A DNA stretch of 21,430 nucleotides, taken from the NCBI GenBank assembly GCA_030039695.1, contig JASHVB010000854.1, forward strand, positions 1-21,430, given 5' to 3'. This stretch comes from Acetobacteraceae bacterium. GTDB taxonomy: Bacteria; Pseudomonadota; Alphaproteobacteria; Acetobacterales; Acetobacteraceae. Of the stretch, positions 241-21,046 are shown piece after piece; position 1 is the stretch's first letter, and every line of letters starts with the position of its first letter. The position numbers and the translations under genes were made by a program. The notes beneath the pieces were generated by a model, which made no database searches, was not told the origin of the DNA, and saw only the letters and a program-made list of their open reading frames with translations.

Positions 241-1095
241 TCAACCGATAGGGCTGGCGTTTTGATCGATCCGTCTGCAATACAATTGGGCGTCGGCCGA
301 TTGAGAGAGCAGGTCGTTGATCTCTCGGCCTATGCGCCAGTCCGCCACCCCGAGCATTTGGATCAACTGCTGAACCGCCTTCTCGCATTCAGCGGTGCCG
401 CCCTGCTTCAACGCCATCGAGCAACCGAGCGCCGCGGTCTCAGGGTCCGGTTCACCTCGCCATAGATCCCGCAAAGTCTCGGTTGTCGCCGGCGGCGGAT
501 CGATTTCAGTCAGCAGTCGCATGGCAGCGCGCCGGCGCCGCCGGGCTGACTCGTCGTCTGGCTCAATACCGATACTCGCAGCGTTGATCAGCGCTGTCGC
601 TGCCGCAGCGCCAAACTTCCGCAGCGCCTCTTCCGCCACGGGGCGCGCGAGATCGTCTCCCAATGCGGCGATGAGGCAGGAAATGCCCTCAATGCGACGG
701 GTTTGGCCGATCACCTCGATCGGTCCGACCAGCTTTCGGGTTTCTGCCAGTAGCAGCAAGCGATGGAACAGAGCGTCATCCATGCTGTCCTGGACGGCAC
801 GGGCAGCGGCATTGATGACCGCCTCCTCACCGGCGCGCTCGACTGGATCAGGGATATGACGGTCAGCTTGTAGGAATTCCGCCAGCACAGCGCGCGCATG
901 AAGCGCCGCCAGGGCCTCGACCACACGGCATCGGGGCTGGAATAGACCGCTCGGCTCGCGTTGGAACAGCAATGTTCGCAAGCGGGGAACAGCCCGCTGT
1001 CCGATTCGCACGACCTCGAGCACACCTCGGTCCCCATCGATCAGCGACGTGAGATGGCACGTCGCCATCTTAAGTTCGTCCGGTGGGCGTTCCAT
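241..1095 (-). CDS. HEAT-like alpha-helical repeat protein
   Basis: A 284-aa protein with no signal peptide or membrane segment. It is built from Ala/Leu-rich amphipathic helices, for example around residues 30-75 (VVEALAALHARAVLAEFL) and 135-170 (GISCLIAALGDDLARPVAEEALRKFG followed by TALINAA). That periodicity is typical of HEAT or PBS-lyase-like repeats, which are protein-binding scaffolds. The start is the ATG 9 nt after the stop of the dynamin-like GTPase, so the two are very likely co-transcribed and translationally linked. By inference it is a partner or regulator of that GTPase. No catalytic motif is visible. The repeat assignment comes from helix pattern only and could not be checked against a profile. 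Confidence 0.75.
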   Translation of the reverse strand: MERPPDELKMATCHLTSLIDGDRGVLEVVRIGQRAVPRLRTLLFQREPSGLFQPRCRVVEALAALHARAVLAEFLQADRHIPDPVERAGEEAVINAAARAVQDSMDDALFHRLLLLAETRKLVGPIEVIGQTRRIEGISCLIAALGDDLARPVAEEALRKFGAAAATALINAASIGIEPDDESARRRRRAAMRLLTEIDPPPATTETLRDLWRGEPDPETAALGCSMALKQGGTAECEKAVQQLIQMLGVADWRIGREINDLLSQSADAQLYCRRIDQNASPIG

Positions 1096-3148: not shown

Positions 3149-3264
3149 GGCACGGGTGGTCGCCTGGCTGTGTGCGTTCGGAACGGGCGCAAACGCGCTC
3201 CGTCATGATCGAACGTGCGCGGGAGCACCCGGATCGCGCGCCACCAGAGGGACAATCTCGTCAT
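3145..3264 (-). CDS. small ORF (39 aa), possibly the N-terminal part of the next gene
   Basis: The ATG overlaps the stop of the preceding gene as ATGA, and the TGA overlaps the next GTG start as GTGA. The peptide begins MTRLSLWWRAIRVLPRTF, and its first 21 codons have strongly GC-biased third positions. The bias falls in the second half, where the frame of the 87-aa ORF is better. The span 3264 to 2885 is 380 nt, one base short of a multiple of three. This fits a single-base deletion (or assembly error) dividing one gene. The alternative is a genuinely separate coupled peptide. Confidence 0.35.
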   Translation of the reverse strand: MTRLSLWWRAIRVLPRTFDHDGARLRPFRTHTARRPPVP

Positions 3265-3989
3265 GTCAGTGCCGGGAGCAGGCTCCGCACGCGCATCCAT
3301 AGGTTTATGCCGCGCGTGCGCTGGGCCGGTGGCTGACGACGCTTTGCGAGAAAGCGCGACAAGAGGTCAAGGTGATCCTCGGAGACTATGGGGCGCGCAT
3401 CCTCGATACCGATTGTGCAAAGACGGTCCAGCAGATCAACGCCCTTTGCCCAATACCATGCACGTTGGTCCGCGAACGCTGCGATCTGCGCGCTGCCGCA
3501 GATCAGACACGCCACCGTACAGGCCACGTCCTCTCGCACCCACTCGTCCAGGACCATTGTCGACGCTACGATGTAGGTTTTCACCGAATGATAGGCCTGC
3601 AGCCATGACCTCACGGTCCGTCTCTTTTCGTCAGCCAGGATGGCCGATCCGGAACCGCCGATGTCGGCCTCGATGCGTGGCAGCAGTTCTGTTCGCGCCG
3701 CATCCAGGAGCAGCTTGGCGCGGGCGTCGTCGTGACCATCGCGCGTGCCGATCATCTGCGGTGCAAAGCACTTAAGATCCTGACGCAGAGAGGCGGGCAT
3801 CTGATCGTTCATCGTAATGGCGAACCGACGAAGCACGCGAGAAGCGGTGACGGGATTGTCCGAATGGTCCTCCCCCGCAAGGAGCGCGACGAACGACATG
3901 ACGCAAAGCTGCGCACGTTGTCGATCGCCGACGCCGCGAACCAGTTCGACTTGGTTATAGAGCTCCTCGAGCCTCGGATTGACTGTCAT
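3261..3989 (-). CDS. uncharacterised helical protein, main part (242 aa)
   Basis: The start is taken at the ATG with AAGGA 8 nt upstream, giving MTVNPRLEELYNQVELVRG. The same frame is open back to an ATG at 4049 and further to a stop near 4131. That extension also shows good coding bias, so this is probably the C-terminal part of a longer gene beginning at 4267. The protein is soluble and helical, with Cys residues at VACTVACLICGSA and basic segments (DEKRRTVRSWLQ, FLAKRRQPPAQR). The family is not recognised. It is the first large gene of the dynamin/HEAT operon; the ATGA overlap at its end supports co-translation. Confidence 0.65.
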   Translation of the reverse strand: MTVNPRLEELYNQVELVRGVGDRQRAQLCVMSFVALLAGEDHSDNPVTASRVLRRFAITMNDQMPASLRQDLKCFAPQMIGTRDGHDDARAKLLLDAARTELLPRIEADIGGSGSAILADEKRRTVRSWLQAYHSVKTYIVASTMVLDEWVREDVACTVACLICGSAQIAAFADQRAWYWAKGVDLLDRLCTIGIEDARPIVSEDHLDLLSRFLAKRRQPPAQRTRGINLWMRVRSLLPALT

Positions 3990-4000
3990 GAGCGGTTCCT

Positions 4001-4267
4001 TCAGCACACGGAAAGCAGTGGAAACCTGAAACGCCGTGCCGGCCGGCATGCTCCCCTGCGACCGGCTCTGCGTCGCAACCTGTTGCTTCCCGGCCGCCGT
4101 ATAGCTCTGGAGGATGCGACATCCTGAGGGCTAATCTGGAAGGCACGCGCCAAATCTTCGATTTGCCGCGGCGAGATGCAGTGCGACTCCATCACGCGCC
4201 GCACGAAGTCTTGCAGAAGGGACGTTTGAAGGGGTGCGCACTGCGGCTCCGTCCGATCGATCGGCAT
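4001..4267 (-). CDS. N-terminal part of the operon's first gene, apparently frameshifted
   Basis: The start at 4267 is chosen for the AAGGA 8 nt upstream (MPIDRTEPQCAPLQTSLLQD). About the first 51 codons, to ISPQDVASS, have GC-rich third positions. After that this frame turns Arg-rich with poor codon bias. The -1 frame takes over with good bias (QSYTAAGKQQVATQ) and runs into the 242-aa ORF without a stop. The span 4267 to 3261 is 1007 nt, one short of 336 codons, so one missing base near 4105-4115 would unite them into a protein of about 335 aa. No slippery heptamer was seen, so programmed frameshifting is unlikely. Confidence 0.5.
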   Translation of the reverse strand: MPIDRTEPQCAPLQTSLLQDFVRRVMESHCISPRQIEDLARAFQISPQDVASSRAIRRPGSNRLRRRAGRRGACRPARRFRFPLLSVC

Positions 4268-4308
4268 ACCTACCATCCTTCTCGTGGCGCTATCGCGCCT
4301 GTGACTGG

Positions 4309-4355
4309 TAGGGGTCATCAGCCGGATCGGCGGTCTATGGGGGCACCCCATCCCC
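4309..4355 (-). promoter_or_regulatory. conserved leader element, copy A (upstream of dynamin operon)
   Basis: Read on the minus strand, this element contains GGGGATGGGGTGCCCC near its 5' side and CGGCTGATGACCCCTA at its 3' side. It ends 41 nt before the ATG at 4267. A second copy at 5528-5573 matches it at 16 of 16 bases in the distal block, at GGCG, and at GGGGATGGGGTnCCCC, with one indel between. Equal spacing from two unrelated starts argues for a cis-acting function (protein operator or structured leader) rather than chance. It could instead be a remnant of a mobile element end. Confidence 0.6.
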
Positions 4356-4379
4356 GGGGATATATTTAATAGCACTCAC
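4335..4379 (-). CDS. possible leader peptide A (14 aa)
   Basis: A GTG-started frame reads VSAIKYIPGDGVPP and then stops with TAG, inside conserved element A. There is no good ribosome binding site. The reason to list it is the match with the second leader frame, which also ends PGDGVP plus one residue and stop at the same place in the element. Confidence 0.25.
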   Translation of the reverse strand: MSAIKYIPGDGVPP

Positions 4380-4716
4380 GCATCAGGTCAACGGCGACAC
4401 CGGCGTCCTCGTTGTAAGGGAATGCAACCTTTTGCCGCGAGCCATAGCCAGTCGATGGCTGGGGCGGAAAGCGGCCGGGATGGCAGGTCCGCTTTGTCTG
4501 CGTCGCACATTCATGCGGGCATGACGTCCGGATTTCCGGCATGCCGCCTGGGTGAGACGCCGCTCTCCCTTCATTCGACGAAGTGATCACTGTAAACGCC
4601 TGCGAGTCCCGCCGTGCAGCCTGATGTCATATGGCTTGCCTGCAGCAACACGAGCTCGCTCGGCAAATGCCGGCCAAGCGTTCGCATGGCTGGTTGTGTC
4701 CCTTCTTGCCCACCCG

Positions 4717-5484
4717 TCACGGTCCGGCATACCTGCAGCTGGGGCCGCCACATCGGCCCTGCCGATCGTCGTCAGGATCGAGGTTGGCATCTAAGACACG
4801 CGAGGTTCCTGACTCTTCATACACAGGGTCTGTCGGTGCGACACTGCAGAACTGGCGCAGTACGTCGAGGTACACGTGACGTTTGAAAGACACGATGAGG
4901 TTTGGAAGTTCGGCGGCCGAAACCCAGCGCCACGCGGAAAACTCAGGATGCTCTGTGGCGACGTTGATCTCAGCGTCGCAGCCGACGAAGCGCATCGCGA
5001 ACCACTTCTGTTGTTGTCCGCGCCAGCGGCCCTCCCACGCCTTGCCGACCAAACTTGGCGGCAGCTCATATCGTAGCCAGGTGCTGCTTTCGGCCAGCAC
5101 TTCGACGTGATCCGTGCCGACCTCTTCCCGCAGTTCGCGCAAAGCAGCGTCGAGCGGCTCTTCACCGTCCTCGATGCCCCCTTGCGGCATTTGCCAGGCT
5201 TCATCCGGCGTTCTGGTTCTGCGGCCCACGAGCACGCTACCGTAGCGGTTGAGCAGCATGACGCCGACGCCGGACCGGAATTCGCATGAACGCTCCGCGT
5301 CGATGCCGAGATACCCATCCGTCGGCGGCGCGGCCGTATCGGCGTGCCGGTCCAGCAAACGTCGATAGAGTGTCCTAATTTGCGCCGGATCGACCTTATC
5401 GGCGCGCATGATCAGCCCGATCAACGGATCAGCCAACCAGTCGTCCAACGAAATTCCTGAATTCGTCCCGCTACTGTCGCTCAT
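4717..5484 (-). CDS. RppH-type Nudix hydrolase (RNA pyrophosphohydrolase-like) with extra termini
   Basis: A 255-aa protein from the ATG at 5484, chosen for AAGGA 9 nt upstream; an in-frame ATG at 5556 lies inside the conserved leader. Residues about 70-215 are a Nudix fold with FRSGVGVMLLNRYGSVLVGRR, DEAWQMPQGGIEDGE and a complete Nudix box (G102 through RELREEVGT). WRGQQQKWFAMRF and EFSAWRWV follow, all characteristic of the RppH / diadenosine-polyphosphate hydrolase group. RppH removes pyrophosphate from mRNA 5' ends and starts decay. Typical RppH is about 160 aa. Here about 70 residues precede the domain (SLDDWLADPLIGLIMRADKV) and an acidic, Cys-containing tail follows. The extra parts and the shared leader suggest a specialised paralogue rather than the housekeeping enzyme. 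Confidence 0.85.
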   Translation of the reverse strand: MSDSSGTNSGISLDDWLADPLIGLIMRADKVDPAQIRTLYRRLLDRHADTAAPPTDGYLGIDAERSCEFRSGVGVMLLNRYGSVLVGRRTRTPDEAWQMPQGGIEDGEEPLDAALRELREEVGTDHVEVLAESSTWLRYELPPSLVGKAWEGRWRGQQQKWFAMRFVGCDAEINVATEHPEFSAWRWVSAAELPNLIVSFKRHVYLDVLRQFCSVAPTDPVYEESGTSRVLDANLDPDDDRQGRCGGPSCRYAGP

Positions 5485-5527
5485 GCCCCATCGTCCTTTC
5501 CAAACGCTCGCGCGCTCGCAATTGCGA

Positions 5528-5573
5528 TAGGGGTCATCAGCCGAAATGGCGCTCATCGGGGAACCCCATCCCC
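5528..5573 (-). promoter_or_regulatory. conserved leader element, copy B (upstream of RppH-like gene)
   Basis: Second copy of the element at 4309-4355, 43 nt upstream of the Nudix start at 5484 and in the same orientation relative to its gene. The blocks GGGGATGGGGTTCCCC and CGGCTGATGACCCCTA are kept. A strong ribosome binding site and GTG-started peptide run into it from upstream, so at least this copy is probably transcribed as part of the 5' leader. Confidence 0.6.
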
Positions 5574-5585
5574 TGGTTCAGTCAC
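5553..5585 (-). CDS. probable leader peptide B (10 aa)
   Basis: GTG start with AAAGGAG 6 nt upstream, reading MTEPGDGVPR and then TGA. The stop overlaps (ATGA) an ATG at 5556 that is in frame with the Nudix gene. A third short frame (MTPIAIASARAFGKDDGA, stop) begins in the element and its TGA overlaps the Nudix ATG at 5484 as ATGA. Such nested overlaps are typical of leader-peptide control or translational coupling. Function is inferred from arrangement only. Confidence 0.4.
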   Translation of the reverse strand: MTEPGDGVPR

Positions 5586-5793: not shown

Positions 5794-6513
5794 TCAAAGA
5801 ACTTCGACGACGACCGCCGTGACGTTGTCTGACGCGTCCTTATCGAGAGCGGCTGCTATCAACGTCTCGGCCAGAGAAGTTCTTTCCCGTCGCGCGAGCA
5901 ATGTGGCGAGTGTGGTGTCGGATAGGGTCTTGAAAATACCATCGCAGCAGAGGAGGAAAATATCGCCCGGCTGCAGGGCACCATCGACTTCATCCAATTC
6001 GAAGCTTTCCAAATCCGCTCCGACGGCGCGCGTGATGACGTTCGCGTGCGGATGATGCTCGGCCTGTTCAGCCGAGATCGCGCCGGCGTCGACGAGTTCC
6101 TGGACCAGACTATGATCTCGCGTGAGTTGTTGAATGTTCCCGTCCCTGACCAAATAGATCCGCGAGTCACCAGCCCAGAGACAAGTAAAGTGATCGTCGC
6201 CGGACACCAATGCCACGACCGTGGACGCAAGCAACACACCAGGTCCACGCCGCGTGGCCTCCATGCGCAAGGCGAGATGCGCCGATTTTATACGCGCTTT
6301 GACTTCGGAGACCCGTTTTGATTCCGCAAGATTGGTGGGTATCGTCTGCAGTGTGTCACGGAGCAATCCGGCAGCAACCTCGCCGCTCTCATGCCCGCCC
6401 GCGCCGTCTGCCACTGCCCACAACCCGGTATCAGGACGATCGACATAGGTGTCCTCATTGTGGGATCGCCTGGGACCCGGATCCGTCGCGGCTGAGGACC
6501 GAAAGCGCATCAT
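5794..6513 (-). CDS. PP2C-family serine/threonine protein phosphatase (PrpC/Stp-like)
   Basis: A 239-aa protein; the ATG at 6513 has GGAGG 8 nt upstream. All metal-binding motifs of bacterial PP2C are present: NED at 19-21, ADGAGGH at 35-41, AGDSRIYL at 114-121, TRDHS at 131-135, CCDGIF at 189-194 and ASDNVTAVVV at 227-236. The length is that of a stand-alone catalytic domain with no membrane anchor, so it is cytosolic. The family removes phosphate from Ser/Thr kinase substrates and often pairs with a Hanks-type kinase or FHA protein, but none is in this window. It lies on the same strand as the flanking Nudix genes but with gaps of more than 200 nt, so it is probably a separate transcript. 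Confidence 0.93.
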   Translation of the reverse strand: MMRFRSSAATDPGPRRSHNEDTYVDRPDTGLWAVADGAGGHESGEVAAGLLRDTLQTIPTNLAESKRVSEVKARIKSAHLALRMEATRRGPGVLLASTVVALVSGDDHFTCLWAGDSRIYLVRDGNIQQLTRDHSLVQELVDAGAISAEQAEHHPHANVITRAVGADLESFELDEVDGALQPGDIFLLCCDGIFKTLSDTTLATLLARRERTSLAETLIAAALDKDASDNVTAVVVEVL

Positions 6514-6750
6514 GGTTATTGCCTCCACTCGCACGGTCGTGGCGGATCGGCGCACGAGCATTACACGCTGTCACCAGGACCGATATTTGGCAAACGGTAG
6601 ACAAAGTGTGTTACGGCTTGTTTGCCTCCTCTGTTTCGCGCCCGGTCTTGGCTCTGGACGTGATGGGCGATAGTCTGCGGAAGCCTATCGCTATCTATGC
6701 ACCATCAACCAGAGCCTGAATTGCGATTTGCACCGCACACCATATTGGAA
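6514..6750. other. intergenic stretch between Nudix and PP2C genes
   Basis: About 237 nt of lower-GC sequence upstream of the phosphatase, presumably holding its promoter. The conserved leader element found before the other two transcription units is not present here. No RNA gene recognised. Confidence 0.4.
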
Positions 6751-7230
6751 TCAAAGCGGGAGACACCTTCGCCTGCCCACCTTGTGACCCAGGAACTCGA
6801 TCGCCGGAACGGTCGCGCGAAGAATCTCGGCAAGACCGCGCTCGTCGACCATGTATGCCGCCCTTTGCGGCGTCATCCACCTATAGTCTCTTTGCGCCTT
6901 CTCCAGCCAGTCCTCGAGTTGGTGATCGACCGACAGCAGGAACACTTTGACGCGGCAGAGGACTTCCCGATTGTCTGGCAGCCGTTTGCTGTAGTGGTAA
7001 GAACCGATCGAACGCTTGCCTACGATTCTGCCGACCAGACCGGCTTCTTCAAGCGCTTCCCTGGCAGCCACTTCTCTTGGCCGGAGCCCAGGAATGGGCC
7101 AACCCTTTGGAATGACCCAGCGCCGTGACTCGCGTGAGGTGATGAGCAGTATCTGTAGGTTGCTCGACTCGATCCTGAAGGGTAGCGCGGCAAATTGCAC
7201 GCCTGTTACGTCGCCTGTCATTCTCGCCAT
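6751..7230 (-). CDS. Nudix hydrolase (DIPP-like group)
   Basis: A 159-aa protein starting MARMTGDVTGVQFAALPFRI. The fold has ILLITSRESRRWVIPKGWP, then the Nudix helix REVAAREALEEAGLVG and SYHYSKRLPDNREVLCRVKVFLL. WVIPKGWP plus REALEEAG is the signature of the DIPP/MutT group that cleaves diphosphoinositol or dinucleoside polyphosphates; the substrate cannot be told. The first Glu of the generic GX5E is Leu, as is usual when the motif is written PKGWP-x-x-GL. The start is uncertain: ATG at 7230 overlaps an upstream stop as TAATG, and ATG at 7221 is equally possible. The first ten residues of the core recur in a truncated copy at 16534. Confidence 0.85.
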   Translation of the reverse strand: MARMTGDVTGVQFAALPFRIESSNLQILLITSRESRRWVIPKGWPIPGLRPREVAAREALEEAGLVGRIVGKRSIGSYHYSKRLPDNREVLCRVKVFLLSVDHQLEDWLEKAQRDYRWMTPQRAAYMVDERGLAEILRATVPAIEFLGHKVGRRRCLPL

Positions 7231-7714
7231 TAGCCAGGCATCCACGCCAGGAACCACCGCCTCACGGTCGCAAGGCCAGGGCGCACACACGCGGAGCGAC
7301 TGCGAGTAGCGAATGCGCGAGAAGCATCTCTTGCAACGCAGCCGAAGGCCTCAACGCCGCAACGGCCAGGGGGCTCAGCCTGATCAAATTTCGGCGGTGG
7401 TGCGTTGGTCTTCATTCTGTTCTTGGGGGCAACGTCCTCTTTATGACTGATTAACTCCGCTACCACCACCTCCCAGGATGGCGCTTGAATGGGACTGCTG
7501 GGCTCGTGATCTGGATGAATAGTCCCGCTGTCGGGCATCCCATGCTCCGGTACAGTGCGGTAGCGTCGCAACTTGTGTCCAGGCCCGATGTGTGGGCTGC
7601 TGGAGCCGCGGGAGAAGGAGGCTGTTTGTGCTCGCGGACGTCGCCGATGCTCCTGTCTTCGTGTCTTGCTGATCCGATGCCGGGGGCTGTGGTCACGTGA
7701 TCGGCGTTCACGGT
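7231..7714. other. stretch without a confident gene
   Basis: Several minus-strand frames are open. One from about 7415 to 7230 (MKTNAPPPKFDQAEPPGRCG) ends in TAATG at the Nudix start, and another (7711 to 7460) starts with GTG just after the broken gene at 7715. Neither has a good ribosome binding site or recognisable motif. The patchwork of half-plausible frames looks like decayed coding sequence. Confidence 0.35.
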
Positions 7715-8787: not shown

Positions 8788-9237
8788 TCATGCTTCAGGC
8801 AGGCTCGCCGGGGCGAACTCCGACTGCCGCCACGCCAACAATAGGCCTCGTCGGCGTCTCGGGTACCGCTCTTGCGTTTCCCTGAGCGCGATAATTCGGT
8901 CGACACGGAAGGTCCGAAAATCCTCGCGGAGTTCGCACCATGCCGCGAGCAGGCGCACATGGTTTCCGAAGGTGAGTGCAATGGGCCAAACGTATCGCGT
9001 CGTGACTCGGCTCGCTTGGTCGCTATAGTCGATTTCGATTCGATGTTCGGCGCGCATTGCGGCGCGCAACCTCACTAACGCTACCCCGTCCGCCGCAGCA
9101 GGTGGCCGTGGCCCGGAAAACAGCCCAATCGCCGCGACAGTCTCCCTCCCATCGCCTGGAAGCACGGCCGCGCTCACTGCACCTCGACGGCGCAGGAGAA
9201 ATTGCATCAGTTCGAATAGCCGTGCCGTGCGCGCCAT
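8788..9237 (-). pseudogene. WYL-domain transcriptional regulator with internal deletion
   Basis: The remaining 149 codons start MARTARLFELMQFLLRRRGA, the usual beginning of DeoR/YafY-type HTH plus WYL regulators. The rest of the winged helix and the linker are missing. The sequence jumps through DGRETVAAIGLFSGP into the WYL domain (LRAAMRAEHRIEIDYSDQ, TTRYVWPIALTFGNHVRLLA and AWCELREDFRTFRVDRI), which reaches a normal C-terminus. Such regulators are usually about 220-330 aa. With most of the DNA-binding domain gone it cannot bind as the family does. The frame stays open, so an in-frame deletion is likely, or two compensating indels. Confidence 0.65.
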
Positions 9238-9299
9238 CAATGTGCCTAGTAGATCGATTCCGTGAAACTGCTTGTTTTGGGCAGAATTCCCGGAGCTTC

Positions 9300-9560
9300 T
9301 AATGCCTTGTACCATTTCATCGATCCGCGGAAAAGGTGGAGCGAGGCTGATGGCGGCATGGCGGCGAGCGATCGGGTCGGCAATCGAGAGTGACGACTTG
9401 GCGAAGCTGACGTCGATCGCGCGGTCGCGGAGCGAAGCGGCGAGCCGGGTCGAGCGGGCGCAGAAGCTGCCGGCTTATTGGAAACGTGCTTCCTTCTTTG
9501 CCGTTGGTCAGGCGTTGGGAGTGCATCACGAGACCGCGTAGCGCTGCGTCGAGCGGGCGG
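9300..9560 (+). mobile_element. 5' fragment of an IS630-type element
   Basis: The plus-strand frame from 9350 reads MAAWRRAIGSAIESDDLAKL, then RSRSEAASRVERAQKLPAYW and FFAVGQALGVHHETA. It meets TAG at 9539 and continues RCVERA. This is the N-terminal helix-turn-helix region of an IS630-family transposase, with a Gln codon apparently turned into amber. The similarity stops at about 9560, where the sequence meets the oppositely oriented fragment. No DDE domain remains. Confidence 0.6.
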
Positions 9561-9921
9561 CGGTCTCGCGCTGCAGATCGACGCAACGCCACCGTACCAC
9601 ACCATCGCGCTCAAACTCAGGACCCTCTCCGACCCATGTCGCCACCTGCGCTTGCTGTTCTTCCGACAGACGCGCCAGCGGGCCATTGCGCCGTGCCTGG
9701 TAATACAGGCCATCCAGCCCAGCCGCGTTGTAGCGGTGCACCCAATCGCGCAACGTCTGGCGATCCATGCCACAGGCCTCGGCTACCGCGTCCCGCAAGG
9801 AGCCTTCCAGCACTAGCGCGATAGCCAGCATGCGGCGCGACGCCTTCACGTCCGGCGTTCGCGCGGATACCTGGCGCAACTCAGCCGCAGAAAGGTCCAT
9901 ACGCGGAATGGCTACCGTCAT
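9526..9921 (-). pseudogene. IS630-family transposase, N-terminal fragment
   Basis: ATG at 9921 is preceded by GGAGGAG. The sequence MTVAIPRMDLSAAELRQVSA leads into the helix-turn-helix VLEGSLRDAVAEACGMDRQT, LRDWVHRYNAAGLDGLY, then LSEEQQAQVATWVGEGPE and RWRCVDLQRETAAR. This is the first third of an IS630-family transposase. At about 9553 it breaks off into unrelated residues (STQRYAVS), exactly where the other fragment ends. The catalytic DDE domain is absent, so it is inactive. It differs in sequence from the plus-strand fragment, so the two come from different elements. Confidence 0.8.
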
Positions 9922-10039
9922 CGCCCGCTCCTCCTTCATCGGAGGTTGGCGAATCACGCCGCCCCGCGTCGCGCCAAGTCACGATCGGGTCAATGGTTCT
10001 GGCCGTTGGTATCCGATCAACGGCAGCGAACCGAGCAAA

Positions 10040-10140: not shown

Positions 10141-11505
10141 TTACGGGATACGCAGCTTGCGCATCTTCTCCCATAATGTAGTGCGAGAGACACCAAGCAA
10201 GGCCGCTGCTTTGGCGATTTCTCCCCCGGTTTGGCGTATCGCTTCTTCTATGTGCAGGCGCTCCGCGCGTTCTCTTGCCTCTGCTAGGGTTCCCACCCTC
10301 CCTCCAGGCTCCTCGAGGAGCGATCGTTCGGGAAAGAGCACGTGCGCCGAAATTTGCGGTGCAGCGGCAACCAGATCCAACGCGCGTTGTATCCGGTGGC
10401 GCAACTCACGTACGTTGCCCGGCCAGTCATGATCGAGCAATTCAGCGGCGGCACCCGGGGTCAGGCTCGGTGTGCGATGACCTGCGTTTCGCGAGAACTG
10501 AGTGATGAAATGCTCTGCAAGCGGGATTATGTCGTCGCGTCGCGTACGCAGCGGGGGAATGTGCAGCTCCGTCACGTTGAGGCGATAGTATAGGTCCGCT
10601 CTGAACTGGCCTTCCCGCACCAACGTGGGCAGATCGGCATTGCTCGATGAAATGATACGTGCATCTGAAATCATTTCCTGCACTCCGCCCAGTCGCATGT
10701 AGCGCTTGTCCTCGATAAGGCGAAGCAACTTGCGTTGCAGCACCGGCGCGAGCGCCGATACCTCGTCCAGGAACAACGTTCCGGCACCGGCCTGCTCCAC
10801 GAGTCCGACGTGGGCCGTCCGCGAGCCAGGAATGACGCCACGCTCGTGGCCAAATATCACGCTTTCCGCGCGCTCGGCGGGCAGCGTCGCGCAATTGACA
10901 ATGACAAAGGGTAAATCCTTACGCAGTGACATGTCGTGCAGTTGGCGCGCGGCCACTCCCTTGCCCACGCCCGTCTCGCCCAGTAGTAGCACCGGATCTG
11001 GCTTATCCGCAGCGGCAAATAGTTCGCTTTGCACCCGGCGCATTGTCGGCGATCCGCTCAATGCCTGCCGGCCCAACGTATCGCTGCCCGCAGTAACTTC
11101 TCTGGCGCAGAGCAGAGCGATCTTGGTGAGAAGTGCATCAACCTCGAACGGCTTCGTGATATAGTCGTTTGCACCGGCCTGCATCAGCCGCACGGCCTGT
11201 TCGACCTCGCCGAAGGCCGTGATGAAGATGACCGGCGTTGTCCCAAGGGTTCGCAGCACGCGTCGGAACAGTTGCTCGCCACTCAGGTCTGGCAGGCGGA
11301 TGTCGGATACGAGAACGTGGCAGGTCGTTTCCGTCAGCGAATCGAGAGCAGCTTCGCCCGACCGCCACCAGCGCGTTTGATAGCCTTCCAGTCGGAGGCG
11401 TTGCACCAACGACTCCCCCATGATCGGATCATCCTCGACGATCCCGATCAGCGGTTGGGCGCCATAGGGCGTTTCAAGGATTGCCGGTTGGCGCGAGGCG
11501 GTCAT
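10141..11505 (-). CDS. NtrC-family response regulator lacking a GAFTGA motif
   Basis: A 454-aa, three-domain protein. The receiver (18-130) has acidic pocket ED at 24-26, phospho-acceptor D68 in VSDIRLPD, T95-A96 and K118. The AAA+ domain (150-380) has Walker A GETGVGKG at 176-183, Walker B GTLFLDE at 242-248 and the arginine-finger region FRADLYYRLNV. The Fis-type helix-turn-helix is at the end (GEIAKAAALLGVSRTTLWEK). Where sigma-54 activators carry GAFTGA, this one has GVIPGS (223-228), so contact with sigma-54 is doubtful. Some NtrC-like proteins without the loop act with sigma-70. The ATG overlaps the kinase stop as ATGA, showing coupled expression. Targets may include the palindromes at 13033-13098 (inference). 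Confidence 0.92.
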   Translation of the reverse strand: MTASRQPAILETPYGAQPLIGIVEDDPIMGESLVQRLRLEGYQTRWWRSGEAALDSLTETTCHVLVSDIRLPDLSGEQLFRRVLRTLGTTPVIFITAFGEVEQAVRLMQAGANDYITKPFEVDALLTKIALLCAREVTAGSDTLGRQALSGSPTMRRVQSELFAAADKPDPVLLLGETGVGKGVAARQLHDMSLRKDLPFVIVNCATLPAERAESVIFGHERGVIPGSRTAHVGLVEQAGAGTLFLDEVSALAPVLQRKLLRLIEDKRYMRLGGVQEMISDARIISSSNADLPTLVREGQFRADLYYRLNVTELHIPPLRTRRDDIIPLAEHFITQFSRNAGHRTPSLTPGAAAELLDHDWPGNVRELRHRIQRALDLVAAAPQISAHVLFPERSLLEEPGGRVGTLAEARERAERLHIEEAIRQTGGEIAKAAALLGVSRTTLWEKMRKLRIP

Positions 11506-13151
11506 CCGATCTCCTGACGCGACGGTTCGCTGGCCGGCAAGGCAACGGCAATCTTCGATCCCCGGTCGTCCGCGGTCGCGGTGATCCGGCCACCAAGGCT
11601 GCGGACAAGGTCTCTCACAACACGTATGCCAAGACCGCGTGGCGGGTCATTGGAGTCGAGGGTCCCACGCTCCGTCAGCGCCGCTACGGCCGAAGGGGGT
11701 AGCCCGGGTCCGGCGTCACTGACCTCCAGCCGCAATTCCGGCTGTGATGGGCCATCGGCACATGTCATGACGGATACCTCAAAGCCGACCTGGCCGCCGG
11801 CTGGCGAGGCCTCGCATGCATTGAGCAGCAGGTTCAAAGCGATTTGGCGGGTTTCGGTCGCATTGACGTTCACATCATCATCGATGGCGTTATCCCAGGA
11901 AAGGTCCAGGCCACGCCGTGCCACTTCGGGAGCGATTAATATCCGCAGGTCTTCGAGGTCTCCGGCCGTGAGCTTGCGGCCGTTTGCGGGCAAACGATGG
12001 AAAGCCAGCACGGAACTCACGACATCCCTGATGCTCCACAGGCCTCTTTCGATGAGATCAAGGGCCTGGGAGCGGACGTCAGGATCATCGCCAAACTTGC
12101 GGACGGTATCGAGCGCTGTGGCCATCCCACCGAGCGGGTTTCGCACTTCGTGCGCCAGGGTTGCAGCGAGGCGGCCAAGCACGCTCTCGCGCTCCCGCTC
12201 TGCCAACCGGGCTGCTAGAGCTTCCCTTTCCTGGAGGGCATCAATCAGGTCATTGTAGCCACGCAGAAGCTGGCCGTAATCGCTCGCCACCGGCGGCAAC
12301 GCGCCGATGGGCACGCGATCAAATATTCCGGCCCGTGCCCGCCGCAGGCGGTCGGTCAGCAGGCGCACTGGCCGCACCATGCGATGCACGATCAGAAACC
12401 CGACACCGGCGGCCCCCAGGCTGGCCAGGATCGTTGCGATCCTCAGGCTCTGGCGGAGTGCCCTGCGCTCGGCGAGCAGTGGTTTAAGGTCCAGGGCCAC
12501 GTAGAGATCGGCGACATGGTTCCCGTTGCGCACGATGGCGCGTGAGGCCCAACCGGTGCCGGTCTTTGCGTCGAAAACAAAGCCGTCGTTTTGTGCGAGC
12601 AGCTGCTGTAGTGCAGGATTGTGAAGGGGACTGAGGCCGCTCTCGTCGCCATGTGGGCCAGAGACATCGGCAAACAGATTCCCGTCAGGCAGCAATACGA
12701 TCGCGCGCTGCTCGCTCATGTCCTGGTGGAACCACATGGACCGGCTCAGCGATTCAATCGTGTCGGGAAGATTGCGTGCCAGTACGTGCGGGTAGACCGT
12801 CGTGGCGATCCCGTCGAGGTAAACTGCCTCAATGCGGCGAACCCCCATTTCCTGTTCCCGCGCGACAGTTGACATCATGACGCGCGAGCCCGCGAGCGCC
12901 ACGGCGAGGATCAGGCCACCGGAGACGATCGGCACACGCGCCCACAGCGGCAGCGGCCACGCCCGTCGCCAGCTCTTGGCAGCCCGCGCGATGACGCCGT
13001 GATGCGAGGTCAACGGCGAAGAATGTCTGATCTCACGGAACCGTGATATGTTCGGAATTCCGAACACGCCGCGGCCCGGCAAGTTCGGATTACCGAACGT
13101 CGAACCGGTAGCGCGCGCGAGAACACTGCGAAGTGCGGTCATATTACTCAT
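11502..13151 (-). CDS. membrane sensor histidine kinase
   Basis: 549 aa from ATG 13151, with an uncertain start: no strong ribosome binding site, and the first 45 codons overlap palindromic DNA. TM1 is about residues 71-94 (VPIVSGGLILAVALAG). A periplasmic sensor of about 140 residues follows, then TM2 at about 238-256 (ATILASLGAAGVGFLIV), HAMP, and HisKA with H334 in LAHEVRNPLGG. The ATPase domain has N444 (LLLNACEAS), DAGPGLP (479-485) and RGLG (505-508). All catalytic boxes are intact. It overlaps the response regulator by 4 nt, forming a classical two-component pair. The divergent universal stress protein and phosphate transporter are plausible targets, but the signal is unknown. Confidence 0.9.
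   Translation of the reverse strand: MSNMTALRSVLARATGSTFGNPNLPGRGVFGIPNISRFREIRHSSPLTSHHGVIARAAKSWRRAWPLPLWARVPIVSGGLILAVALAGSRVMMSTVAREQEMGVRRIEAVYLDGIATTVYPHVLARNLPDTIESLSRSMWFHQDMSEQRAIVLLPDGNLFADVSGPHGDESGLSPLHNPALQQLLAQNDGFVFDAKTGTGWASRAIVRNGNHVADLYVALDLKPLLAERRALRQSLRIATILASLGAAGVGFLIVHRMVRPVRLLTDRLRRARAGIFDRVPIGALPPVASDYGQLLRGYNDLIDALQEREALAARLAERERESVLGRLAATLAHEVRNPLGGMATALDTVRKFGDDPDVRSQALDLIERGLWSIRDVVSSVLAFHRLPANGRKLTAGDLEDLRILIAPEVARRGLDLSWDNAIDDDVNVNATETRQIALNLLLNACEASPAGGQVGFEVSVMTCADGPSQPELRLEVSDAGPGLPPSAVAALTERGTLDSNDPPRGLGIRVVRDLVRSLGGRITATADDRGSKIAVALPASEPSRQEIG
13033..13046. promoter_or_regulatory. inverted repeat TCACGG-AA-CCGTGA
   Basis: Perfect 6-bp arms around AA, 18 bp from the centre of the neighbouring 16-bp palindrome. 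It lies in the 5' region of the kinase frame. A possible additional operator, weaker than the next two because its core differs. Confidence 0.35.
13050..13098. promoter_or_regulatory. two GTTCGG-n4-CCGAAC palindromes
   Basis: GTTCGGAATTCCGAAC (13050-13065) is a perfect 16-bp palindrome, and GTTCGGATTACCGAAC (13083-13098) repeats it with centre ATTA. Their centres are 33 bp apart, about three helical turns, so two dimers would sit on the same face of DNA. In the kinase frame they are translated as VFGIPN and TFGNPN. Good candidates for operators controlling the kinase operon, the divergent stress gene, or both. Confidence 0.55.
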
Positions 13152-13344
13152 TGCTCTGCGGGAACGTATACAAACTTTGTCGGATGCGATTACGCGTTTC
13201 ATCCGGCACAACGGTACCGTCGATCGCAATATATACTTGCTGTCCATCGAGTGGGAAGCAATTGTCGCGCGACGCACCATGAATCGATCCGGGAATGTCT
13301 ATCTGCAACGTAGCTGAACAATAAGCCTGAACGGGAGGCACACA
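13152..13344. promoter_or_regulatory. divergent promoter region, kinase operon versus stress protein
   Basis: About 190 nt between oppositely oriented genes, AT-richer than its surroundings, with TATATA- and GTATAC-containing stretches (near 13170 and 13230) that could serve as -10 elements. ACAAACTTTGT near 13172 is an 11-bp palindrome. GGGAGG at 13331-13336 is the ribosome binding site of the stress protein. Exact promoters cannot be fixed. Confidence 0.4.
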
Positions 13345-14214
13345 ATGGGCTTGCGGGATATTCTCGTTGTGCTTGATGACGGGCCGGTCAGCGAAACGCG
13401 TCTGCAGCTTGCGACGAAAGTTGCCCGGCAACAGGAAGCCTCTCTCAGCGCTGTGCTCCTTCGATCTGACCGCGCGGCCCCTTCGCGCGTTGCGAGCCGT
13501 GCGCCACACCTGGCTCTTACGGCTGGAACGTCATCGGGGTTGGTCGCAGCGAGGCTTTGGGTAGAGGCGGTGCCTCACAATGAGGCAGAGCTCCTCGAAC
13601 GCCGCTTTCGCGATTGTGTCCGGTGCGTTGATCACGGCGGGGAATGGTATTGCGTGGACCGGGCCGACCACGCGGCGCTGGTGAACCTGGCAAAGGCAGC
13701 TGATTTGGTTGTCATGGGACAGGTCAGCCCTTATACCGGCGCTGTGCCGCCGTGGTACCGCCCAGAAGAAATTGTCGTTAATTGCGGCCGCCCTGTTCTG
13801 ATGGTCCCGTACATCGGGACTTTCGAGGAAGTAGGCCAACGCGTTCTCATCGCGTGGGATGGCTCGAGAGAAGCGGTGCGTGCGGTTAACGACGCATTGC
13901 CGGTTATAGCGTCCGCTCGAGTCGTCACGTTGATGACCATCCGGCCTGATTTCCGCGGCTTTCAGTCAGAGCGCGTTGCGATGCAGAACATGCGTCGGCA
14001 TTTGGCGCGGCACGATGTCGTCGCCGTTATCGACGAGACCATTCGGGGCGACAGCACCGTCCATGATGTTCTGCTGTCTCGTTCGGTCGATCTCGCGGTC
14101 GATATGATCGTGGCCGGAGCTTATCACCGTTCACCCTTTCGGGAGGCGCTGATCGGCGGCGTCAGTCGCGGTCTGCTCCAGCACATGACTGTTCCGGTAT
14201 TGATGTCACACTGA
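13345..14214 (+). CDS. tandem-domain universal stress protein
   Basis: A 289-aa protein with a good GGGAGG site 8 nt before ATG. It has two Usp folds. The first (1-150) begins LRDILVVLDDGPVSETRLQL and ends with VVNCGRPVLMVPY. The second (157-289) begins GQRVLIAWDGSREAVRAVND and ends VDMIVAGAYHRSPFREALIG, GVSRGLLQHMTVPVLMSH. The second keeps the shape of the Usp nucleotide-binding loop, with Tyr-His in place of the usual Gly. Tandem Usp proteins of this length are common in alphaproteobacteria and respond to energy, oxygen or envelope stress. It leads the gene pair with the Na/Pi transporter and is divergent from the two-component system. Confidence 0.9.
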   Translation: MGLRDILVVLDDGPVSETRLQLATKVARQQEASLSAVLLRSDRAAPSRVASRAPHLALTAGTSSGLVAARLWVEAVPHNEAELLERRFRDCVRCVDHGGEWYCVDRADHAALVNLAKAADLVVMGQVSPYTGAVPPWYRPEEIVVNCGRPVLMVPYIGTFEEVGQRVLIAWDGSREAVRAVNDALPVIASARVVTLMTIRPDFRGFQSERVAMQNMRRHLARHDVVAVIDETIRGDSTVHDVLLSRSVDLAVDMIVAGAYHRSPFREALIGGVSRGLLQHMTVPVLMSH

Positions 14215-14216
14215 GC

Positions 14217-14402
14217 ATGAGATCCGTCCTCGCAATTCTGGAGACTGCTGCGCCGGACATCCAGCCTGGTCGCCCGGATCACAGGCGCAGGCGTTCCTCG
14301 ATCTCACGACCGGATTGCGCGTTCTCTCATCGAGAGCAAATTCACCTCAGCAAAGGACACACCGGGTGCGGTTCACAGCGCCGCGGAGATGACGGCCAAT
14401 GA
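14217..14402 (+). CDS. possible linking ORF (61 aa) between stress protein and transporter
   Basis: The ATG lies 2 nt after the stress-protein stop, and its TGA overlaps the transporter ATG as ATGA. The first 20 residues (MRSVLAILETAAPDIQPGRP) look protein-like; the rest is Arg/Ser/His-rich and not convincing. The position would couple translation of the two large genes. It may be decayed or chance. Confidence 0.25.
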   Translation: MRSVLAILETAAPDIQPGRPDHRRRRSSISRPDCAFSHREQIHLSKGHTGCGSQRRGDDGQ

Positions 14403-16054
14403 ACTTCCCTCTCACGGTCGTGACGCTCGCTGGCTCGGCGGCGCTTCTGTTGTGGGGTGTCCGGATGGTTCAAACGGGCGTGCAGCGCGCCTCCGGGGCG
14501 AAGCTTCGCAGCACTTTGGGCCACACACTGCAGAACCGTTTCAAGGCGTTCCTCGCGGGGGCGGGCGTGACCGCCATCCTGCAGAGCAGCACGGCAACGG
14601 GCCTCATGGTCACCGGGTTCGCGGCAGGCGGGCTTGTCGAGCTCGTGCCAGCACTGGCCGTCATGCTGGGCGCCAATGTCGGCACGACGCTGATCGTTCA
14701 AGTGCTTTCGTTTAACGTCAACGAAGCCGCACCCGCCCTCATCCTGGTCGGCGTGATCATGTTTCGGCGGGCAACAGCCGGCCCGCGGGACTTCGGCCGT
14801 GTGCTGATCGGCTTGGGCCTCATCCTGATGGCACTCAATCAGTTCGTGGAGGCGCTGTCGCCCTACGAAAGCGTGCCAATGCTCAGTCAGCTTCTCGGCG
14901 CTATATCCACTCAGCCCTTGCTGGACTTGCTTCTCGCGGCGGGGTTTACCTGGGCCGTTCACTCGAGCGTGGCCGTTGTGCTGGTCATTATGTCTTTTGC
15001 CGCCAACGGGACGGTCCCACCGGATGCGGCCTTTGCGCTGGTGCTTGGCGCGAATCTCGGAACCGCGATCAATCCGGTGCTCGAAGGTGCGACCGGCGAC
15101 GATCCAGCGGCGCGGCGTGTGCCCCTTGGCAATCTTGTCAATCGCGTCATCGGTGTCGCGGTCGCCCTTTTTCTGCTGCCTCACATCAGCCCCTGGTTGG
15201 CGCATTTCGATCGAGACAGCGGACGGGCGGTTGCCGACTTTCACACGGCTTTCAATCTCGTGCTGGCGGTCCTTTTTCTCCCGTTGCTCGATCCCTATGC
15301 CGCCCTGCTGCGGCGCTGGCTGCCGGCACGCGTAGATCCGGCGGACCCGAGCCGCCCCCTGTATCTCGATCCCGCGGCCCGCGAGGCACCGATGGTCGCT
15401 TTGGGAGGCACTGGACGCGAGGCGCTTCGGCTGGCCGATGTACTGGAAACCATGTTGACCGGCCTGCGCGATGCCCTCGAGAGAGATGACCGCAAACTCG
15501 TCGCCGAGACGCGGCACCTCGATAGCATCATCGATAAGCTGAATACCGCGATCAAGGCGTATATCGCGTCGCTGGACGCGGGTGCACTCAGCGACGCCGA
15601 TCATCACCGCGTGCGAGAAATCCTCGCCTTTACCACGAACATGGAGCAGGCAGCCGACATCGTGGCGAAGGACCTGCTCGGGATTGTCAGCAAGAAGATC
15701 AAGCGCGGTTTGTCGTTTTCTGAAAGCGGCCAGGCGGATCTCATGCAACTCCTCGACCGCCTGTCGGCGAATGCGCGAACCGCGGCGTCGCTGTTCATGA
15801 CCGGTGACGAGCGGGCCGCGAGGCTTTTGGCGAGCGAGAAGGAGACATTCCGCAGCCTGGAGGCGTTGGCAACCGAAGCACACTTCGAGCGCCTGCGTTC
15901 GGGGCGCATCGATACGGCCGAGACAACCGCCCTGCACTTGGACGCCTTGCGATACCTCAAGACCGTCAACGCTCATCTGGTCGCTGGTGCCGCATATCCG
16001 CTGTTGGAGAGCAAGGGCGAGCTGCTGGCCAGCCGGTTGCGCCATGAAACGTAA
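14399..16054 (+). CDS. Na/Pi cotransporter family protein with PhoU-like C-terminus
   Basis: A 551-aa inner-membrane protein. Two inverted transport repeats are visible. The first has QSSTAT (62-67) and GANVGTT (91-97); the second has HSSVAVVLVIMSFAANG (188-204) and GANLGTAINP (217-226). These are the hallmark QSS and GANxGT motifs of the NptA/PNaS family. About eight hydrophobic segments cover residues 1-310. The last 200 residues are a soluble helical PhoU-like domain (residues 345-551, for example LADVLETMLTGLRDALERDD and ILAFTTNMEQAADIVAKDLL). The family imports phosphate with sodium, and the PhoU-like part may gate it. Translation probably depends on coupling, as the local ribosome binding site is weak. 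Confidence 0.93.
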   Translation: MNFPLTVVTLAGSAALLLWGVRMVQTGVQRASGAKLRSTLGHTLQNRFKAFLAGAGVTAILQSSTATGLMVTGFAAGGLVELVPALAVMLGANVGTTLIVQVLSFNVNEAAPALILVGVIMFRRATAGPRDFGRVLIGLGLILMALNQFVEALSPYESVPMLSQLLGAISTQPLLDLLLAAGFTWAVHSSVAVVLVIMSFAANGTVPPDAAFALVLGANLGTAINPVLEGATGDDPAARRVPLGNLVNRVIGVAVALFLLPHISPWLAHFDRDSGRAVADFHTAFNLVLAVLFLPLLDPYAALLRRWLPARVDPADPSRPLYLDPAAREAPMVALGGTGREALRLADVLETMLTGLRDALERDDRKLVAETRHLDSIIDKLNTAIKAYIASLDAGALSDADHHRVREILAFTTNMEQAADIVAKDLLGIVSKKIKRGLSFSESGQADLMQLLDRLSANARTAASLFMTGDERAARLLASEKETFRSLEALATEAHFERLRSGRIDTAETTALHLDALRYLKTVNAHLVAGAAYPLLESKGELLASRLRHET

Positions 16055-19346: not shown

Positions 19347-19601
19347 ATGTCACGCGTAGTTTTCTTGCTGGCACTGTTGCTTGGTGCCTGTGCCGCACAA
19401 CCGCCACCCCATGCCGACCTATCACCAGCAACCGTGCGGACCGCATGGCTAAGCAAGGGCCGGTACGTGTGGCAACCGCTAGTGCCGGCTGTGCCGCCCG
19501 TGAAGCCAGCAAAGAGAGATCCCACAACCCCGATCGCGACTGTTCCGCGCGTTCTCGCGTGCGATCTTACCGGCTTCAATGGTGGCTGTGCGACCTACTG
19601 A
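19347..19601 (+). CDS. small lipoprotein, possibly truncated by the adjacent IS
   Basis: An 84-aa protein with a lipoprotein signal: MSRVVFLLALLLGAC with lipobox LGA-C15, then a Pro-rich extracytoplasmic part and a C-terminal CDLTGFNGGCATY whose two Cys could pair. It would be lipid-anchored in the outer or inner membrane. The ATG at 19347 has no clear ribosome binding site. The TGA stop (19599-19601) lies exactly where the IS5-type element begins, so the original C-terminus may have been different. With the sequence beyond the IS, the frame could read through TTA for about ten more codons. The family is not recognised. Confidence 0.6.
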   Translation: MSRVVFLLALLLGACAAQPPPHADLSPATVRTAWLSKGRYVWQPLVPAVPPVKPAKRDPTTPIATVPRVLACDLTGFNGGCATY

Positions 19602-20660: not shown

Positions 20661-21046
20661 TTAGCTGCCATCCGCAGCCGGGTCAGACGATGAACTCGCT
20701 GAGACTAGCGCCGTGTTGTTCCGTAATGCGTATGAGAAATGACCCTTATTTTGCGAGTCGCTGATTTAGCATCAGCGCGACAGCCGATGTACCGCGGGCG
20801 ATCTGGTGGAACAACCTTGAGCGCACCCTGTTGGCGGTGGAGGACCTGGATTGCCGCAAGTTGTTGGGCTGAGGGAACCGTCAATGCCGTCAACATCATC
20901 CAGGACAGAAATAATGTTCGGCGATGGCGCGATCGTCGGGCGTGGGTGAGGGCATTGGCCGAGCCGGGCAACAATGGCCATAATCGAAAATCCAGCAGGC
21001 CCGGCCCGGCGATGCGGGCCGGGGTGACCGAGGGAGGGAGGTTACC
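20661..21046. other. stretch between IS and secreted propeller gene
   Basis: About 390 nt without a confident gene. CGCTGAT-n5-ATCAGCG (20759-20777) is a perfect 7-bp stem, without a T-run. A minus-strand frame (MLTALTVPSAQQLAAIQVLH, about 20900 to 20705) is open but unrecognised. The last 50 nt form the leader of the next gene. Confidence 0.35.
21000..21023 (+). promoter_or_regulatory. GC-rich hairpin in the leader of the propeller gene
   Basis: CCCGGCCCG-GCGATG-CGGGCCGGG is a perfect 9-bp stem with a 6-nt loop, ending 23 nt before the ATG at 21047. No T-run follows. It could be the terminator of upstream transcription, a stabiliser or an attenuator. Confidence 0.45.

Follow-up and report, generated by a model that had tools for sequence, protein, structure and literature searches.

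What signal could be common to an operon that encodes a dynamin-like GTPase and a separate gene for an RppH-like Nudix hydrolase? The question is raised by a 21,430-nt stretch of DNA from an Acetobacteraceae bacterium (contig JASHVB010000854.1 of assembly GCA_030039695.1; "the window" below means this whole stretch), in which two similar short elements precede these two genes. A first-pass annotation, made from the letters alone, had read the elements as an undescribed leader, perhaps a peptide, that ties the two units together, and had recognised in them no known riboswitch. The tie holds, but neither the undescribed status nor the peptide role survives: both copies match the fluoride riboswitch family of Rfam (RF01734), and the signal common to the dynamin operon and the Nudix gene is fluoride. 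The riboswitch class is known; the dynamin as its target is the new part.

Identity of the repeated element

The repeat is real. The two copies form the top direct repeat of the window (4309-4357 and 5528-5576; 49 nt, 71% ungapped), and a chance origin is excluded because both exceed the gathering cut-off of one Rfam family: against a cut-off of 34 bits, RF01734 scores 46.0 bits (E 5e-10) for the copy before the dynamin operon (RS1) and 42.3 bits (E 7.9e-9) for that before the Nudix gene (RS2). No other Rfam family reached gathering level in the 21,430 bases, and between 4200 and 5700 none besides RF01734 appeared at E up to 1. RS1 also scores 59.4 bits with a model of our own, R1, of whose seed it is a part. 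On the same minus strand the copies are followed by start codons at distances of 41 nt (codon at 4267) and 43 nt (codon at 5484), as the first-pass annotation had noted; the spans of the aptamers are corrected to those of Table 1.

The architecture of the class can be read in both copies. Stem P1 with its loop is GGGGATGGGGTnCCCC, the second stem is GCC/GGC, and the 3′ strand of the pseudoknot lies within CTGATGACCCCTA; known RF01734 riboswitches have the same stems, pseudoknot, conserved core and position before genes. Nineteen aptamers, the two from the window among them, were aligned (A2; 17 distinct rows). Pairing holds in 94.0% of the cells that make up P1, the second stem and the pseudoknot, a value that none of 500 shuffles attained. 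P1 has 97.1% paired cells and the pseudoknot 97.6%, with three of its five pairs changed on both sides. Further pair types, one of five measures, were not above shuffles (120/500 as high). What counts against the assignment is the second stem, with 83.3% paired cells and no covariation, figures that are weak partly because of misalignment. From sequence and predicted pairing it is near certain that both elements are aptamers of the fluoride riboswitch, the crcB RNA motif published in 2010 (PMC2864571).

A dynamin family associated with fluoride riboswitches

Across its family this dynamin is very strongly associated with fluoride riboswitches and with fluoride genes. Evidence came firstly from a contig scan with a dynamin alignment, blind to RNA, which gave 434 relatives; the best 80 were kept. 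In 54 of the 80 a same-strand riboswitch lies no more than 300 nt upstream of the dynamin start; the number rises to 64 at a limit of 1 kb and to 71 at 3.5 kb. Four of the matches so counted are weak, at 20 to 27 bits (L042, L049, L017, L023). The first-pass annotation had reckoned with the case that homologous operons lack the element; these counts show the opposite, and RF01734 proved widespread upstream of dynamin relatives, beside known fluoride genes. Model R1, used for the scan of the loci and built from 19 aptamers most of which do not adjoin a dynamin, gave 136 matches at E up to 0.05 in the 80 loci and the window. RF01734 itself, run over the relatives' genomes in three batches with unequal filters, one of them stricter (20/22, 48/50 and 7/8), was present in 75 of the 80 at E 1e-3, and above the Rfam cut-off in 74; among named control genomes it was present in 4/14. 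Of 27 genomes with exactly one RF01734 match, 22 have a riboswitch no more than 300 nt from the dynamin, and in all 22 it is the genome's sole RF01734 match (coordinates converted by hand). Dynamins linked to the riboswitch occur in bacteria as well as archaea and are 33-54% identical to the window protein. Spread of the dynamin by plasmids was considered and rejected: just two of 72,556 plasmid records matched at E 1e-20, both under 36% identity.

The association was bolstered by two evenly drawn samples of 199 genomes each, one from the phylum of Moorella (Bacillota; G034) and one from that of G010 (probably Acidobacteriota, the name borne by the records of G074 and G078 in its sample), both searched with the dynamin alignment and with RF01734. 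The phylum counts exclude genomes preselected by the first scan (G034 and G007 of the Bacillota; G010, G074 and G078), and the limit of 130 bits that separates near from far dynamins was chosen once gaps in the score lists had been seen. In the Bacillota sample a riboswitch is present in 14/15 genomes with a dynamin of at least 130 bits versus 67/182 of the remainder (Fisher 1.9e-5); in the second sample the figures are 21/22 versus 45/174 (Fisher 1.7e-10), and combined 35/37 versus 112/356 (Fisher 2e-14). By hand tally, counting any dynamin match, 27 of the 37 have a same-strand riboswitch at most 1 kb upstream and 32 have one at most 2.5 kb upstream; among those 27, RF01734 scores under the Rfam cut-off in four (G115, G227, G346, G419) and two rest on R1 alone (G248 and G123, the latter with a score of only 18.8 bits). 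No enrichment is seen in genomes with a best dynamin below 130 bits (7/22, p 1.0). Seven of these 22 carry DynA-like frames (about 1,200-1,340 aa), and a riboswitch lies nearby in only one of the 22, at a 153-aa frame (G265).

The distribution of the riboswitch on a tree points the same way. The tree holds 133 GTPase domains and was made by a quick method with a midpoint root and some long branches; two domains under 200 aa (L131, L161), one missed by the profile (L126) and five copies of included genomes (L111, L112, L141, L142, L144) were left out, and rows were labelled by hand as linked where a riboswitch lay within 3.5 kb. One set of 116 takes in all 103 linked rows, together with 8 unlinked rows and 5 short of upstream DNA; its support is 89, which is below the starred level, and another 17 unlinked rows fall outside it. 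The label changes 9 times on the tree versus 23.1 times in shuffles (0/500 as few). By record name the linked rows, most of them metagenome-assembled genomes (MAGs), belong to alphaproteobacteria, Thermodesulfobacteriota, Bacillota, Planctomycetota and Acidobacteriota, with further rows from Spirochaetota, Atribacterota, Chloroflexota and methanogenic archaea.

The company that the dynamin keeps was assessed by clustering neighbouring open reading frames (ORFs) over 81 sequences, one representative per cluster being tested against Pfam (HAD came only near the cut-off). Clusters of Na+/H+ exchangers (20 sequences), enolase (18), MutS (16), MFS transporters (15) and Usp proteins (14) were found, and further ones of CrcB (9), DUF190 (8), an NADH-dehydrogenase-type subunit that is probably formate hydrogenlyase (6) and HAD proteins (4). 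Passages of the literature name as fluoride-riboswitch genes CrcB, Na+/H+ antiporters, enolase, formate hydrogen lyase and HAD proteins (PMC11139923), and also mutS and formate hydrogen lyase (PMC2864571) and uspA (PMC5533749). In Moorella sulfitireducens SLA38 a single stretch (L031, 8006-16198) reads riboswitch-crcB-crcB, riboswitch-dynamin and riboswitch-MFS-MutS-MutS, with 71 nt between riboswitch and dynamin; the three riboswitches are confirmed and the first CrcB is Pfam-tested. A Methanolinea locus (L044) reads riboswitch, dynamin, a Pfam-tested toroid protein and enolase. On a plasmid of Lichenicola cladoniae (L189, 6675-6887) RefSeq-annotated dynamin and crcB diverge, with a riboswitch between them. 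Fluoride regulons can be dense: contig G003:C128 (31.6 kb) has seven RF01734 matches and G021:C139 (39.6 kb) eight.

Several observations weigh against a simple one-to-one coupling. No upstream riboswitch was found in 8 of the 80 loci, and although four of these have at most 204 nt of upstream DNA, the other four have 480 to 9,951 nt (L026, L053, L035, L036). In L007 the riboswitch is 7 kb from the dynamin, and the Lichenicola riboswitch is oriented toward crcB and away from the dynamin. In the window itself 1.4 kb and other frames separate RS1 from the dynamin start, and queries with the relatives' CrcB, Na+/H+ exchanger, enolase, MutS and MFS proteins found no such gene there. The sole match of those queries was of the 409-aa CrcB of Lichenicola, possibly a CrcB-Usp fusion, to the Usp protein of the window (28.8% over 146 residues).

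The dynamin and its operon

The 596-aa window protein is a dynamin-like GTPase, and the residues of GQFKRGKS, DTPG and NKxDY, which we take to be the dynamin GTPase motifs, are invariant in an alignment with 31 homologues (A1). Its predicted structure (pLDDT 82.1, pTM 0.65) comprises a GTPase part, long helices and, between helices, a low-confidence stretch; in other dynamins the corresponding stretch is the site of membrane contact. Foldseek places the model closest to IniA (6j72; E 7.7e-23, 21% identity) and next to the bacterial dynamin-like protein (BDLP) of Nostoc (2j68/2j69; E 6.7e-22), and by way of these matches the model has the GTPase-neck-trunk architecture; its domain arrangement is uncertain because whole-length TM-scores are only about 0.4-0.5. 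By sequence the order in the PDB is reversed, with Nostoc BDLP best at 121.7 bits and IniA at 65.0 bits. The protein falls far short of the DynA-type equivalog (NF052648; 61.7 bits, cut-off 1600) and of the LeoA-type subfamily (NF041922; 15.2 bits, cut-off 325).

IniA of mycobacteria is the most instructive relative: it too is a stress-induced dynamin-like protein, it fissions membranes and has been proposed to preserve membrane integrity under drugs, yet it is drug-induced, and the abstract of that study names no fluoride riboswitch (PMC6715688). DynA of Bacillus subtilis is described as taking part in the surveillance of membranes and in defence against phages (PMC8844932). In contrast to the window dynamin, one encoded on a plasmid of another Nostocales cyanobacterium has no riboswitch in the 10.9 kb searched. 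For Nostoc BDLP itself we know of no inducer.

Directly behind RS1 lies a small ORF that has no homologue in the dynamin loci compared and may not be a gene. The first well supported gene of the operon is orf262, which has no Pfam match and is 47% identical to L001:383-1126, likewise behind a fluoride riboswitch. Behind the dynamin a 284-aa protein, again without a Pfam match, has homologues of 41-57% identity in L001, L002, L003, L005, L008 and L012; it is perhaps a HEAT-like helical-repeat protein, HEAT matches appearing only below the Pfam cut-off in two of these homologues (L001, L002). In L001, an Acidobacteriaceae MAG, the order is riboswitch (4-67), orf262 homologue (47%), dynamin (54%), PP2C (63%) and homologue of the 284-aa protein (57%). 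The window has a PP2C-type phosphatase gene upstream of RS2 (5794-6561, minus strand); it may be another fluoride-operon gene, since its 63% relative directly follows the dynamin in L001 (4438-5145).

The Nudix gene behind RS2

The product of the second gene scores 205.4 bits against NF001938 (cut-off 116), with a match from residue 65, and 141.7 and 126.1 bits against two other NCBIfam RppH models, under their cut-offs of 259 and 241. It shares the Nudix domain with RppH, the (di)nucleoside polyphosphate hydrolase; this long form differs by its extra N-terminal part. Among 20 genomes of the first set, 10 had relatives, with 18 matches in all. Long forms (match from residue 2-17 of the window protein) stand on contigs with RF01734 matches in 7 of 7 cases, versus 1 of 11 for short forms (match from residue 55-69; the one is G019:C6), a difference (Fisher 2.5e-4) that is only a guide with contig fragments and related genomes. 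A riboswitch precedes three of the long forms at a distance of 97-136 nt (G021:C139, G010:C117, G003:C225), and a fourth directly follows the dynamin (G008); the remaining three have riboswitches on the contig, none just upstream. A separate short form is also present in six of the seven long-form genomes, and the regulated gene is therefore a separate paralogue and not the common RppH.

RppH is among the enzymes that fluoride inhibits. In the structural account of PMC7144940, which also cites Guranowski 1990 on Ap4A hydrolases, fluoride was soaked into RppH crystals as an inhibitor and took the place of the attacking water. Such inhibition agrees with the rule by which cells overproduce enzymes that fluoride inhibits, and by analogy the long-form Nudix protein is most likely a replacement for, or a supplement to, a fluoride-inhibited enzyme. 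A second, different Nudix hydrolase (PF00293) is encoded beside the PP2C gene, at 6751-7290 (minus strand).

Mode of control in the leaders

Terminator-like sites between 4100 and 5750 number 0, versus 1.2 expected in shuffles. The intrinsic terminator platform was thus rejected and a translational platform favoured. A search of the leader region for sigma-70 promoter-like sites found none and was not informative. Minimum-energy folds offer a candidate OFF pairing for each leader, in which the ribosome-binding region before RS1's operon would pair with the 3′ end of the aptamer, and the pre-start CGAUGGGG of the Nudix gene with CCCCUAUCG (Table 1). Across dynamin leaders such pairing is stronger than in shuffled sequences (53 tested of 54, one being too short; mean z -1.09, 72% below zero, Wilcoxon 2e-5), a p-value that is generous because the 53 leaders are related. 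In the window the pairing alone is no better than chance for either leader (259/2000 shuffles as low for RS1, 203/2000 for RS2), and in the model the ribosome-binding regions open only modestly, from 0.39 to 0.50 and from 0.24 to 0.41 unpaired; these figures, with the relatedness of the leaders, tell against the scheme. With moderate confidence we favour translational ON control, as the folds suggest.

Features of the window

The coordinates are collected in Table 1. Beyond the genes under study the window has, on the minus strand, genes for a WYL-domain protein (8788-9315), a helix-turn-helix protein that may be a transposase fragment (9526-9957), and a sigma-54-type response regulator with its histidine kinase (10141-13280). 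On the plus strand a Usp-domain protein is followed by a Na+/phosphate cotransporter with a PhoU domain (13345-16054), with no RF01734 match upstream; phosphate import and Usp are both named in passages of the fluoride papers. The only transposase confirmed by Pfam (19674-20627, minus strand; PF01609, PF13340) is flanked by 30-nt ends, 77% complementary, in an insertion element at 19598-20664. The first-pass annotation had considered that the repeated element might occur at the ends of insertion sequences; the inverted ends near this transposase, at 19.6-20.7 kb, are far from RS1 and RS2.

Table 1. Riboswitches, their pairing strands and the genes behind them, in window coordinates.
Feature	Position	Strand	Basis
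284-aa protein behind the dynamin, perhaps HEAT-like helical-repeat	241..1095	-	homologues
Dynamin-like GTPase, 596 aa	1105..2895	-	PF00350, 82.8 bits (cut-off 27)
orf262, conserved; first well supported operon gene; likely ATG near 3989	3261..4049	-	homologue in L001
Small ORF directly behind RS1, start ATG 4267; gene reality uncertain	4001..4267	-	open frame
RS1 ribosome-binding region UGGUAGG; candidate OFF pairing with CCUACCA 4306-4312 (aptamer 3′ end)	4269..4275	-	minimum-energy fold
RS1, fluoride riboswitch aptamer 1 (RF01734), dynamin operon leader	4302..4364	-	Rfam, 46.0 bits
RS1 pseudoknot strand GGGGU; partner ACCCC 4311-4315	4345..4349	-	sequence reading
RppH-like Nudix hydrolase, 255 aa, about 65 extra N-terminal residues (long form)	4717..5484	-	NF001938, PF00293
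RS2 pre-start CGAUGGGG (start 5484); candidate OFF pairing with CCCCUAUCG 5525-5533	5486..5493	-	minimum-energy fold
RS2, fluoride riboswitch aptamer 2 (RF01734), Nudix gene leader	5521..5582	-	Rfam, 42.3 bits
RS2 pseudoknot strand GGGGU; partner ACCCC 5530-5534	5563..5567	-	sequence reading, aptamer alignment A2

Discussion

We consider it probable that the two riboswitches of the window define one fluoride regulon, in which an operon with a membrane-remodelling dynamin and a Nudix paralogue are switched on together. Upon a rise of cytoplasmic fluoride, F- with Mg2+ would lock the pseudoknot (GGGGU/ACCCC) of each aptamer. In the ligand-free fold the ribosome-binding region would be paired with the 3′ strand of the aptamer; locking of the pseudoknot would free it and turn translation on. 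Through RS1 the operon with the dynamin-like GTPase would be made; the dynamin, judged by its fold and by IniA, acts most likely at the inner membrane, where it would maintain or remodel the membrane under HF stress, as proposed for drug-induced IniA. Through RS2 the RppH paralogue would be made, most likely replacing or supplementing a fluoride-inhibited enzyme, as with enolase and pyrophosphatase. The fluoride response of the two window copies, the translational mode, the membrane function and the role of the Nudix protein are parts that we infer.

A critical issue is what the dynamin does once it is made. It might answer a side effect of fluoride, namely the inhibition of GTPases and phosphoryl-transfer enzymes, and serve as a replacement or GTPase sensor instead of in membrane repair. 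GTPases can be locked by metallofluoride complexes, and alignment A1 shows no variation in the residues of the GTPase motifs. Other members of the regulon, enolase and pyrophosphatase, are described in PMC11139923 as fluoride-inhibited enzymes made in excess. A soluble decoy, however, would need neither the long helices nor the low-confidence tip stretch that the modelled fold keeps, like the membrane-acting IniA and BDLP, and we regard such a role as unlikely, though it is the most serious competitor to membrane remodelling.

It is considerably less probable that the dynamin is a passenger, fluoride islands gathering genes and the riboswitch being merely the nearest leader. The many riboswitches per stretch in some genomes, such as the seven on G003:C128, and the presence of a transposase gene in the window would suit such an origin; but the sole riboswitch of a genome serves the dynamin in 22 of 27 single-riboswitch genomes, and the association reaches across bacteria and archaea at identities of 33-54%. 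The last alternative, an undescribed leader peptide or other RNA class, can be dismissed: a short frame ending PGDGVP plus one residue and stop is indeed present in both copies, but it results from reading the conserved core of the aptamer, GGGGATGGGGTnCCCC, in codons, both copies pass the RF01734 cut-off, and of 136 riboswitches (105 assessed, 31 missed by the motif pattern) the stop stands at the window's place in only 16 of the 105, whereas 45 have no stop in frame within the element. A leader-peptide attenuator was accordingly rejected.

How does a dynamin under riboswitch control compare with what is known? Neither a dynamin operon nor an RppH-like Nudix gene is named as a target of RF01734 riboswitches in the passages of PMC2864571, PMC7266159, PMC11139923 and PMC5533749 considered here, and the six-gene operon named for island GI3 of Enterobacter cloacae FRM contains neither (PMC5533749). 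A literature search that left the supplement of Baker et al. 2012 uncovered found nothing joining fluoride, riboswitch and dynamin; for fluoride riboswitch with Nudix it found one review.

The riboswitch is, in effect, a label marking genes that matter under fluoride, and here a widespread dynamin family that was without a physiological signal receives one, and a Nudix enzyme is indicated as a further fluoride target. Both points bear on fluoride toxicity, on the bioremediation of organofluorines and on the purpose of bacterial dynamins. Whether this GTPase family, found in many phyla and in methanogenic archaea, is a dedicated and ancient arm of the fluoride response that remodels or seals the membrane against entry of HF seems to us evenly balanced. 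Because fluoride complexes can trap dynamin-type GTPases, such a family may even be gated by fluoride directly. The finding suggests that the remodelling of membranes has been overlooked as a component of fluoride resistance and raises the question of why a membrane-shaping GTPase should be needed under fluoride stress. If true, membrane remodelling would take its place as an arm of resistance beside export, pH control and enzyme replacement.

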